The translations under genes were made by a program, and so were the position numbers. From Aureitalea marina (GTDB lineage Bacteria; Bacteroidota; Bacteroidia; Flavobacteriales; Flavobacteriaceae), in NCBI RefSeq assembly GCF_002943755.1, contig NZ_MQUB01000001.1:1848501-1912500 (forward strand): DNA of 64,000 nucleotides. The letters are read 5' to 3'. Of the stretch, positions 2,393 to 16,386 are shown piece by piece. Position 1 is the first letter of the stretch, and every line of letters begins with the position of its first letter. Under the pieces are notes generated by a model that worked only from the letters and a program-made list of their open reading frames with translations, was not told the DNA's origin and ran no database searches.

Positions 2393-2405
2393 TTACTTTG
2401 AATTT

Positions 2406-2453
2406 GAAGGGTAGTGCCTGATTAAGGTCATCCTCTGGCACCGCTCTCCCTTC
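2406..2453 (-). promoter_or_regulatory. Structured leader before rpsD (candidate S4-responsive RNA)
   Basis: Read on the minus strand, the rpsK-rpsD gap folds into nested stems. The outer stem is GAAGGG (2448-2453) with CCCTTC (2406-2411). The inner stem is GTGCC (2437-2441) with GGCAC (2414-2418), extendable by a G-U pair. A small GAGG / CCTT helix with an ATGA loop fits inside. The structure ends 13 bases before the rpsD ATG. Position and shape suit autogenous control by S4, known for E. coli (before rpsM) and Bacillus (before rpsD). The function here is inferred. Confidence 0.5.
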
Positions 2454-2470
2454 GGTTTATACTTAATTGA

Positions 2471-12536: not shown

Positions 12537-13166
12537 CTATTTACTTAAGTTTGCTTCAATTCCTTCCAAAGAACCTTCGAACAACACTAGGCTGTTCGCG
12601 TTCATAATTTTGTAAGTGCTTAATTCTGAGTTCATTACAACTTCAGCACCTTTCAAATTACGCGACGACAAATATACGTTATTATTTGCGTCACCCAACA
12701 CGAACAGAGACTTTTTGTTCTCCAGCCCCAGGGATTTCAATACAGAATTGAACTCGGCGGTTTTTGGAGCTTCCATTTGGAAGTCCTCTAACACGATGAT
12801 TGCCTTATCGTTAGCCTTTTGACTGAGGGCCGAACGACGAGCCAAACGCTTCAGGTTCTTGTTCAGCTTGAAACCGTAATTTCTCGGGCGTGGTCCAAAT
12901 ACACGACCACCTCCTTTGAAGATAGGCGACTTAATACTACCCGCACGAGCTGTACCGGTACCTTTCTGACGCTTGATCTTACGAGTGGATCCTACGATCT
13001 CTCCTCTTTCCTTGGCCTTGTGAGTCCCTTGACGTTGATTGGCCAGGTACTGCTTTACATCCAGGTAAACTGCATGATCGTTAGGCTCGATCCCGTATAC
13101 CGCTTTAGAAAGCTCTGCTTTCCTTCCGGTATCTTTTCCGTTTTTATCTAAAACCGCTACCTTCAT
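12537..13166 (-). CDS. rplD: 50S ribosomal protein L4
   Basis: L4 lines the exit tunnel and, in E. coli, also represses the S10 operon by stimulating termination at a leader hairpin. The 209-residue product has the tunnel loop region [20 protein letters not shown] and [19 protein letters not shown]. It is 13 bases after rplC. An attenuator-like hairpin between rpsJ and rplC (13829-13860) makes L4 the first candidate for feedback control here, by analogy only. Confidence 0.97.
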
Positions 13167-13179
13167 TATTTCTCGATCG

Positions 13180-13776
13180 TTACATAGGCGTTCTTGTGAC
13201 CGGGAACAGCCCTTTCACAACAAGCAGGTTCTTCTCAGGAACCACTTTTAGTACGCGCAAGTTTTGAACTTTCACTTTTTCATTCCCCATTTGACCAGCC
13301 ATGCGCATCCCCTTGAATACTCGAGCTGGATACGATGCGGCTCCAATGGAACCAGGTGCTCTCAATCGGTTGTGCTGACCGTGAGTCGCCTGACCCACAC
13401 CGGCAAAACCGTGACGCTTAACTACCCCTTGGAATCCTTTCCCTTTGCTTGTTCCTGAAACATCCACGAACTCGCCTTCTTCAAAGTGCTCCACAGTGAT
13501 AGTATCACCTAGTTTATACTCCTCTTCAAATCCTTGGAATTCAACAACACGGCGTTTAGCAGTTGTTCCAGCCTTCTTGGCGTGGCCCTCATCCGCTTTA
13601 TTTGCCTTCTTTTTGTCATCGAAACCAAGCTGAAGAGCTTCATACCCGTCAACCTCTTTGGTTCTGACTTGGGTAACGACACAGGGGCCTGCTTCGATAA
13701 CGGTACACGGAATGTTCTTTCCGTTCTCGTCAAAGATGCTGGTCATCCCTATCTTTCTTCCAATTAACCCAGACAT
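13180..13776 (-). CDS. rplC: 50S ribosomal protein L3
   Basis: L3 is an early assembly protein that reaches the peptidyl-transferase centre. The 198-residue product has [20 protein letters not shown], then [20 protein letters not shown] and [20 protein letters not shown], the known family blocks. The gene begins after a 160-base untranslated gap from rpsJ that contains a terminator-like hairpin, so its expression may be uncoupled from rpsJ. Confidence 0.97.
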
Positions 13777-13814
13777 AGTTATTATTTAATTAATAGTTAT
13801 TGTTCTTATTCTTA

Positions 13815-13929
13815 CCGGAGAGCTTCTCAAAAAAACAGGGTCAAAATAACTTCAACCCTGAAAATTATTTTGCTCCGTTTTTCCTTCGCTCGCAGCTCCG
13901 GACATGTCACCACCGGCTTTTCCAGTGGC
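13815..13929 (-). promoter_or_regulatory. rpsJ-rplC leader with alternative pairings
   Basis: Directly after the rpsJ stop a hairpin forms: GCCACTGG (13922-13929) with CCGGTGGT (13909-13916), loop AAAAG. Further down, CCGGAG (13896-13901) and a second copy CGGAG (13873-13877) can each pair with CTCCGG (13815-13820), which lies just past the terminator's T run. An upstream hairpin, then a terminator hairpin, then a competing sequence resembles the E. coli S10 leader in layout. The pairings are read by eye; control by L4 or L3 is inference. Confidence 0.45.
13829..13860 (-). terminator. Terminator/attenuator hairpin between rpsJ and rplC
   Basis: On the minus strand CAGGGT (13855-13860) pairs with ACCCTG (13836-13841). 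G-U and A-U pairs extend the stem to about ten base pairs, and seven T residues follow at once (plus-strand A run 13829-13835). This is a complete intrinsic terminator inside the ribosomal run, about 52 bases before the rplC start codon. Unless it is partial or controlled it would cut off 27 downstream genes, so attenuation is the natural reading. Confidence 0.7.
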
Positions 13930-13936
13930 AGTATAC

Positions 13937-14242
13937 TTATACCTTGATCTCTACTTCAACACCAGATGGCAGCTCCAATTTCATCAGAGCGTCAATGGTC
14001 TTGGAAGAAGAAGAGTAGATATCCAACAAGCGCTTATACGAGCTCAATTGGAATTGCTCACGACTCTTCTTGTTCACGTGTGGCGAACGCAACACGGTAA
14101 AGATCTTCTTGTGAGTTGGTAACGGGATCGGCCCGGTTACAACTGCACCTGTACTCTTTACAGTCTTCACGATTTTCTCGGCAGACTTGTCTACCAGGTT
14201 GTGATCGTACGACTTAAGCTTTATTCTGATTTTTTGACTCAT
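13937..14242 (-). CDS. rpsJ: 30S ribosomal protein S10
   Basis: S10 is in the head of the small subunit and, as NusE, also takes part in transcription antitermination with NusB. The 101-residue product has [20 protein letters not shown], then [20 protein letters not shown] and [17 protein letters not shown]. It is 11 bases after fusA, so the str and S10 operons are joined without tuf. A 160-base structured gap follows. Confidence 0.97.
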
Positions 14243-14253
14243 TCCTTAACAAA

Positions 14254-16386
14254 TTACACGTTAGCAGTTCCTCGGGCAGCAGCTACTACCTCTTCCGAGA
14301 TATTCGATGGAGTCTCAGCGTAGTGCGAGAATTCCATGGTAGAAGTAGCTCGTCCAGATGAAAGGGTACGCAGGGTAGTCACATATCCGAACATTTCGGA
14401 TAGTGGCACCAATGCTTTTACCACTTTGGAACCAGCACGATCACTCATATCATTTACCTGTCCACGTCGACGGTTCAGGTCACCTACAATATCACCCATG
14501 CTCTCTTCTGGAGTAATTACCTCCAGTTTCATGATGGGCTCCATGATAACGGCACCTGCAGCCTTGGCGGCAGCTTTAAATCCTAATTTTGCAGCAAGCT
14601 CAAAAGACAACTGATCAGAATCCACAGGGTGGAAAGATCCATCCTTGAGGGTAACCTTCATGCTATCTACTTCGAAACCAGCCAATGGGCCATTCTTCAT
14701 GGCGGCACTGAATCCTTTCTCAACAGACGGGATGAATTCCTTAGGAATGTTACCTCCTTTGATCTCGTTCACAAACTCTAGACCAACTTTACCTTCGTCA
14801 GCAGGTCCTAGTGTAAACACGATATCGGCAAACTTACCACGACCACCCGTTTGCTTTTTGTACACCTCGCGGTGATCTGCAGTGCGGGTAATGGCTTCTT
14901 TGTACTCCACCTGAGGCTGTCCTTGGTTAACTTCAACCTTGAACTCACGCTTCAGACGATCAACGATGATATCCAGGTGCAGCTCTCCCATACCAGAGAT
15001 AACTGTTTGTCCGGATGCTTCGTCAGTACGAACCTGGAAGGTTGGATCCTCTTCGGCCAATTTGGCCAGGGCCATTCCAAGCTTGTCAACATCTGCTTTT
15101 GTTTTTGGTTCTACGGCAATACCGATCACAGGATCAGGGAAGTCCATAGATTCCAGGATGATCGGAGACTTCTCTGCTGAGAGGGTGTCCCCGGTCTTGA
15201 TATCCTTAAATCCAACCGCTGCTCCAATATCTCCTGCCTCGATAAAGTCGATGGCATTCTGCTTGTTGGAGTGCATTTGATAGATTCTAGAGATACGTTC
15301 TTTCTTACCAGAACGGTTGTTCAATACATAAGATCCGGCATCAAGACGTCCTGAATAAGCACGGAAGAAAGCCAAACGACCAACAAACGGGTCAGTGGCG
15401 ATCTTAAAGGCCAGTGCAGAGAAAGGCTCTTTGGTGTCCGGCTTACGGGCGATCTCGTCTCCGGTATCAGGATCGGTACCTACGATAGCGTCCTTATCTA
15501 CAGGAGAAGGCAGGTAACGACATACGGCATCCAGTAGGAACTGAACCCCTTTGTTCTTAAACGCAGAACCACAGATCATTGGGATGATGGACATGTCCAT
15601 CACAGCAGCACGAAGAGCAGCGTGCACCTCGTCCTCAGTGATGGAGTTCTCATCTTCCATGAATTTCTCCAGTAGGTTCTCGTCATATGCAGCAACCTCC
15701 TCGATCAGCTTCTCGCGGTACTCGGCAGCTTCTGCTTTCAACTCTTCAGGAATCTCTACTACATCGAAAGTAGATCCCATGGTCTCGTCATGCCAGATGA
15801 TGGCACGGTTTTTAACCAGGTCAATGATCCCTTTGAAATCCATTTCCTCACCGATCGGCAATACGATAGGCACGGCATTGGACCCCAACATATCTTTAAC
15901 TTGCTGAGCAACAGCCAGGAAGTTAGACCCCTGACGGTCCATTTTGTTTACAAATCCGATACGTGGCACTTTGTAGTTGTCCGCCAATCGCCAGTTAGTT
16001 TCTGACTGAGGCTCAACTCCGTCCACCGCACTGAACAAGAAAACCAATCCGTCCAAAACACGAAGTGATCGGTTAACCTCCACAGTAAAGTCTACGTGAC
16101 CAGGAGTATCGATAATATTGAAGTGGTAACCTTTAGCATCTGCTGTTGGCTGACCATTTTCCGTTGGGAAATTCCAGGTACAGGTAGTAGCCGCAGAAGT
16201 AATGGTAATACCACGCTCCTGTTCTTGCTCCATCCAGTCCATAGTAGCCGCTCCATCGTGTACTTCCCCGATCTTGTGGCTTACCCCAGTATAATAAAGG
16301 ACACGCTCTGTTGTCGTTGTCTTACCGGCATCAATGTGCGCGGCAATTCCAATGTTTCTGGTATATTTTAAATCTCTTTGCGCCAT
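14254..16386 (-). CDS. fusA: Elongation factor G
   Basis: EF-G drives translocation of tRNA and mRNA on the ribosome at the cost of GTP and also helps recycle ribosomes. The 710-residue product has all GTPase motifs: [19 protein letters not shown] (P-loop), [30 protein letters not shown] and [10 protein letters not shown]. Domains II to V follow, with [20 protein letters not shown] in domain III. It lies between rpsG (6 bases) and rpsJ (11 bases). No tuf follows it, unlike in Proteobacteria. Confidence 0.98.

Follow-up and report, generated by a model that had tools for sequence, protein, structure and literature searches.

A compact RNA module of 79 nt stands between rpsJ and rplC in Aureitalea marina and in most of the Flavobacteriaceae whose corresponding gap could be read. 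On the grounds of its place, its conservation and its two interleaved stems we propose that it probably attenuates transcription, as a so far undescribed leader of ribosomal protein genes in this family that would gate the genes from rplC to rplQ, with a protein of the operon as the likely effector and L4 as the first candidate. Coordinates refer to the window, the whole stretch of 64,000 nucleotides analysed, in which the module occupies positions 13907-13829 on the minus strand.

The genes around it run on the minus strand in the order rpsL, rpsG, fusA (16386-14254 in the ORF list), rpsJ (13937..14242, 101 aa), a gap of 160 nt (13936-13777), rplC (13180..13776, 198 aa, encoding L3, with homologues in 58 of 60 relatives), rplD (12537..13166, 209 aa, encoding L4) and so on to rplQ; these names are assigned mostly from the sequences together with the gene order. 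The product of rpsJ, the gene upstream of the module, is S10, also known as NusE. By ORF positions rplC to rplQ amount to 28 genes, most of their names individually unchecked, where a preliminary description of this DNA had put 27 downstream of the terminator. Its statement that this is the only large gap in the first half of the ribosomal run agrees with the ORF list. The gap folds better than 200 of 200 dinucleotide shuffles (z -3.55).

From 5' to 3' the module consists of a conserved ACAUGUCC box (13900..13907), the P1 hairpin (13883..13901), a nearly invariant GGAAAAACGG box (13875..13884), an AU-rich antiterminator (13842..13872), a terminator hairpin (13836..13860) and a U7 tract (T7 in DNA, 13829..13835), all on the minus strand. 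P1 is built of a CC/GG step, a purine-rich internal loop in which G-A pairs may form, a GC/GC step and a loop of 3-5 nt, and about 0-5 nt separate the 3' end of GGAAAAACGG from the antiterminator. In the antiterminator, 13872-13865 (CAAAAUAA) pairs with 13849-13842 (UUAUUUUG), at -7.6 kcal/mol in the window; in the terminator, 13860-13850 pairs with 13846-13836, giving 11 pairs around a 3-nt loop at -11.7 kcal/mol. The 3' arm of the antiterminator sits inside the terminator, so the two stems are mutually exclusive. The conserved parts (ACAUGUCC, P1, GGAAAAACGG and the AU-rich antiterminator) are not visible from one sequence. Among 158 distinct modules the first box reads ACATGTCC in 139 and AAATGTCC in 16, and GGAAAAACGG is found in 156, counts that are affected by the roughly 100 modules that came from a pattern scan requiring ATGTCC. 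In the 29 modules found without such a demand, ATGTCC is exact in 26, the rest having ATGTCT or TTGTCC, and GGAAAAACGG is present in 27.

The distribution of the module was read from 60 relatives that had been searched by L3 rather than by the RNA, the gap between rpsJ and rplC then being inspected. It was present in 29 of the 36 Flavobacteriaceae genomes with a gap read, the window's own included, and missing from seven (L006, L023, L026, L031, L035, L038 and L048); all 13 gaps read in other families of the order lacked it, the gap of L049 being unreadable. Bare hairpins, some with a T-rich tail, were observed in the gaps of two Flavobacteriaceae (L006, L023) and two genomes of other families (L043, L044). 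A covariance model, R1, was built from these 29 modules, the window copy among them, and scores the window module at 86.8 bits, the next best place in its own genome reaching 21 bits. R1 matches 315 of 397 family genomes and, under stricter filters, 286 of 330 good-quality ones; three weak family matches (G250, G273, G393) are false, lying elsewhere than at rplC, and the other weak ones were partly checked. In 24 family genomes there is more than one match, the second place scoring at most 37.5 bits, and the seven such places that were read (L260-L266) are ordinary terminators by their letters. Across the order 22 of 148 genomes match, 14 of them Flavobacteriaceae, and across the phylum 24 of 395, with 19 from the family. 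Matches outside the family stay at or below 40.9 bits, and none of those fetched has both rpsJ and rplC in its stretch.

The exact-pattern matches listed belong to genera of Flavobacteriaceae, among them Winogradskyella, Polaribacter, Gramella/Christiangramia, Zobellia, Maribacter, Aquimarina, Salegentibacter, Cellulophaga and Dokdonia, except for three metagenome bins labelled otherwise (L154, L172, L184). In 107 of the 118 pattern-scan loci listed, rpsJ and rplC flank the pattern; at the other 11 it lies within 200 bases of one end of the fetched stretch, which makes the gap unreadable. Two copies at L194:1609-1819 might be taken for a tandem switch; they flank a run of N at a scaffold join, and this candidate was dropped. 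One genus, g147, presumably Flavobacterium, is without the module in 10 of 10 readable gaps. Its gaps carry a promoter-like motif before rplC (L278, L284, L285, L286, L289; L279, L282, L283), and its leader sequences fall into two groups of similar members, which may represent another kind of rplC leader.

A terminator-like site as such is no evidence, because shuffles of the 14 kb examined yield 13.4 sites of any kind; the hairpin at 13860-13836 has the most pairs among the 21 sites found there. The intrinsic terminator with its T7 run, reported in the preliminary description, is present in the letters as an 11-pair stem, and the covariation in relatives that the same description had proposed as a check was found in this stem, with the interleaved antiterminator kept. 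In an alignment of 66 modules (A2, 65 distinct rows), which was fitted to the P1 and terminator structure and not to the antiterminator, the pairs of P1 and the terminator are standard in 94.6% of cells, against at most 54.6% for slid partners. Changes on both sides occur in 12 of the 17 pairs, a number reached by none of 500 shuffles. Four P1 pairs (8-25, 9-24, 13-21 and 14-20) are among those that change on both sides, in few rows each, and 7-26 is invariant; in isolation P1 folds no better than shuffles. We also followed the terminator on a tree of rpsJ and rplC, which omits 13 of 165 loci with too little rplC; one further, cut-off locus (L172) was omitted from the tree tests of both stems and from the pairing, swap and stability tests of the antiterminator. 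Among independent row pairs, a change on one side of the terminator is matched on the other in all 6 cases at one base pair and in about 12 of 13 at a second, and the opposite pattern never occurs. The terminator pairs therefore covary strongly, also on the tree.

The arms of the antiterminator form at least 6 pairs in all 158 distinct modules. As A-U richness alone could give that many, a partner-swap test was run: with a uniform cut and 125 distinct arm pairs, own partners reach -5.01 kcal/mol and swapped partners -2.92 ± 0.13, the lowest of 5000 permutations being -3.38, and another version of the test gave a similar result. In A2, 73.7% of cells pair in the antiterminator, and its covariation is 0.156 compared with 0.079 ± 0.011 in shuffles and at most 0.036 for slid partners; the number of double-change pairs was matched by 28 of 500 shuffles and the number of pair types by 244 of 500. 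The tree-controlled tests depend on the choice of segment. With the uniform cut, 53 independent pairs divide into 23 better, 11 worse and 19 equal (sign test p 0.058, Wilcoxon p 0.004), whereas unevenly cut segments lend no support (18 better, 23 worse, 14 equal) and fixed columns give no significant result. Overall the support for the antiterminator is moderate, and its tree-controlled part modest. The terminator is the more stable stem in 158 of 158 modules (mean -13.6 versus -6.7 kcal/mol), so readthrough requires kinetics or help. That a terminator at this position must be read through, in part or under regulation, had already been argued in the preliminary description, and an attenuator before the rplC operon is still the best reading, since the covarying terminator needs readthrough and a competing stem is kept.

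Two other elements of that description are not conserved. A CTCCGG just past the T run, which had been suggested to pair with either of two upstream CGGAG copies, can do so in the letters of the window; TCCGG occurs within 40 nt after the module in only 1 of 151 gaps, the window's own. Its role as a switch did not hold up, the stretch behind the module pairing with the 5' part of the module at -5.24 kcal/mol and with swapped partners at -5.21 (151 gaps). Similarly, the hairpin directly after the rpsJ stop exists in the window and is not conserved between relatives, where the segment from the rpsJ stop to the module varies in sequence and in length (12-495 nt). In the window (13812-13820) and in L003 the stretch behind the U tract can pair with P1, at -13.4 and -20.4 kcal/mol respectively; pairing of this strength is seen in few of the 151 gaps, so it may be a local add-on.

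At every fetched locus scoring at least 46.8 bits the module lies before rplC (64 of 64), and in 63 of these it has rpsJ on its other side. At the remaining one (L245:1480-1610, genome G385) an unrelated gene, a 461-aa frame other than rpsJ, ends upstream, and then come, in order, TTTGTACATCTAAAAAAAGTCAGTACATTTGC, the module, rplC and rplD; TTTGTACATCTAAAAAAAGTCAGTACATTTGC is promoter-like, fitting the Bacteroidota promoter. Unless L245 reflects an assembly fault, the module therefore goes with rplC and not with rpsJ. We then located TAnnTTTG, which we take to be the Bacteroidota -7 element. It occurs before the module in 22 of 151 distinct gaps, where letter shuffles predict 6.4, and together with a TTG element in 9 (0.6 expected). 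Between the terminator and rplC it is found in a single gap of the 151 (3.8 expected), and with the TTG element in none (0.1 expected). A strong rplC promoter behind 13829, which the preliminary description had named as the mark of two separate operons, is thus not indicated, the motif being rarer there than expected. Promoter-like motifs before the module and hardly any behind it argue that the module gates rplC: judged by motifs alone, an intrinsic terminator stands between the promoter-like motif and the gene. Three Polaribacter loci (L124, L190, L192) have, behind rpsJ, first a hairpin ending in a T run, next the motif and last the module, which is there a 5' leader in the strict sense. 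At six further loci (L133, L142, L152, L157, L193, L205) TAnnTTTG overlaps the rpsJ stop codon. Within the last 250 nt of rpsJ the motif appears in 3 of 151 cases, compared with 17.2 after codon shuffling, and no promoter-like motif was seen in the window from 13830 to 14600. In A. marina, therefore, readthrough from upstream or another kind of promoter must feed the module; in both cases the terminator precedes rplC.

Two simpler accounts of the terminator have to be weighed against these data. It could be a plain terminator that ends a fusA-rpsJ operon, in which case rplC would have a transcription start of its own further down. In a single genome it does look like a 3' end after rpsJ, plain terminators follow rpsJ in several relatives (L028, L093, L112), and the g147 motif lies in the corresponding gap. 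However, the motif counts on either side of the module run contrary to such an arrangement, the motif precedes the module in L028, L093 and others, L245 has no rpsJ to terminate, and a plain terminator would have no use for the conserved boxes; we consider it very unlikely. The boundary of two operons, tried as the whole explanation, was rejected on the distribution of promoter motifs and on L245. A partial, unregulated terminator that sets a fixed ratio of fusA-rpsJ to rplC is also quite unlikely, because both the boxes and the interleaved stem would be superfluous and a module behind its own promoter-like motif has no such ratio to set, even though the terminator is the best supported stem and bare hairpins occupy the gap in some family genomes without the module (L006 and L023 above).

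The remaining alternatives concern what the attenuator would read. Attenuation by a translated leader peptide can be given next to no weight. The box contains an AUG in all but one of the 151 gaps, and 76 of the 151 have an ATG-started frame of at least 10 codons running through GGAAAAACGG; yet of the 150 frames that begin at the box AUG, 79 stop after 2 codons and the rest after 4 to 49, and a conserved leader peptide was ruled out, no conserved short reading frame being found among these 150. The same attenuator might instead answer to another signal, such as a small molecule, a growth signal or a polymerase factor (NusA, NusG, or NusE with NusB), which we regard as possible though doubtful. 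Nearly invariant boxes around a variable hairpin are what a receptor with a fixed partner would show, the usual neighbour rpsJ encodes NusE, and no clear rRNA mimicry was found. The 23S of G014 does have a two-box match, AUGUCC-GAGAGG-GAAAGAAC from position 989, and shuffled 23S equalled it in 119 of 500 cases; a likeness to the rRNA site, a trait of some ribosomal-protein leaders only, was thus not seen in a form that would point to a particular protein, and the window's own assembly gave no 23S match. Against another signal stand the lack of any Rfam match, the failure of R1 to match the stretch of G014 with its rRNA operon (best 9.7 bits), and precedent: such leaders are bound by one of the operon's own products, exceptions being possible (PMC7247131). 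A bolder version, in which a receptor RNA of a new kind gates S10-spc-alpha (about 28 genes) and is read by a polymerase factor, for example NusE with NusB, or by a growth signal and not by L4, we rate as unlikely.

For the attenuator that we favour, with a protein of the operon as its effector, the arrangement of the parts suggests the following course. As the RNA emerges, P1 and the ACAUGUCC and GGAAAAACGG boxes would form a receptor. The AU-rich antiterminator would form next and trap the terminator's 5' arm within its loop, so that polymerase would run on into rplC. A partner bound to P1 and the boxes may compete with the antiterminator or stack on it; the 3' edge of an occupied receptor, adjoining the antiterminator, would favour its loss, so that the stabler terminator forms and rplC is not reached. 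Surplus protein of the operon would most likely be the occupant, closing a feedback loop. L4 is our first guess, because it is the known regulator of this operon in E. coli, where it acts with NusA to cause premature termination (PMC10931766), and because known ligands are the best guide (PMC7247131); the rRNA comparison lends L4 no support.

The module stands consistently before ribosomal protein genes and has a structure with covariation, as ribosomal-protein leaders do; as in an attenuator, an antiterminator excludes the terminator, with modest tree-controlled support. If the attenuator reading is right, it would work like the L4-responsive S10 leader of E. coli, which serves the same gene block and whose intrinsic terminator lowers transcription of the operon (PMC10931766, in part). 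That leader precedes rpsJ, whereas the Flavobacteriaceae module follows rpsJ and precedes rplC, the comparison being one of arrangement and not of leader sequences. An L4 leader predicted in Archaeoglobi likewise stands before rplC, rplD, rplW and rplB (PMC7247131, Table 1); it is archaeal, and the comparison is one of gene position. In the same phylum, leaders predicted for S4, S15, S16 and L13 in Flavobacteria and Bacteroidia are also conserved RNAs before ribosomal protein genes, and differ in preceding other genes, namely rpsD, rpsO, rpsP and rplM (PMC7247131, in part). Table 1 of that paper, its supplements aside, gives S4, S15 and S16 for Flavobacteria and no Bacteroidota leader before rplC. 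The window itself has a 78-nt gap (2393-2470, minus strand) before an ORF at 2392-1787, rpsD by order, without an Rfam match; at the rpsD site an S4 leader is predicted in Flavobacteria (PMC7247131, same part). T-boxes and riboswitch attenuators similarly combine two exclusive stems with an upstream receptor and a U tract; the module differs from them in matching no Rfam 15 family, there being no match at the gathering score anywhere in the 64 kb window. With relaxed settings, the 501 bases centred on this region returned CrcZ alone, at 12.1 bits against a threshold of 95, chance-like and outside the module.

The portions of PMC2965389 covered hold nothing on Flavobacteria, rplC or rpsJ, and those of PMC9723704, on 5' regulatory RNAs, name other leaders and none for rplC. 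Titles and the openings of abstracts in the literature searched, supplements aside, do not mention the element, and the same partial literature gave no account of the control of the largest ribosomal protein operon in Bacteroidota. With a compact RNA of clear parts in named genera, control before rplC becomes testable. If L4 is the effector, feedback on the S10 genes would have arisen here independently of E. coli and at a site displaced downstream by one gene. An effector other than L4 would mean a new kind of control of ribosome synthesis, and if the receptor is read by a polymerase factor or a growth signal, most ribosomal protein synthesis in these bacteria would hang on one antitermination decision.
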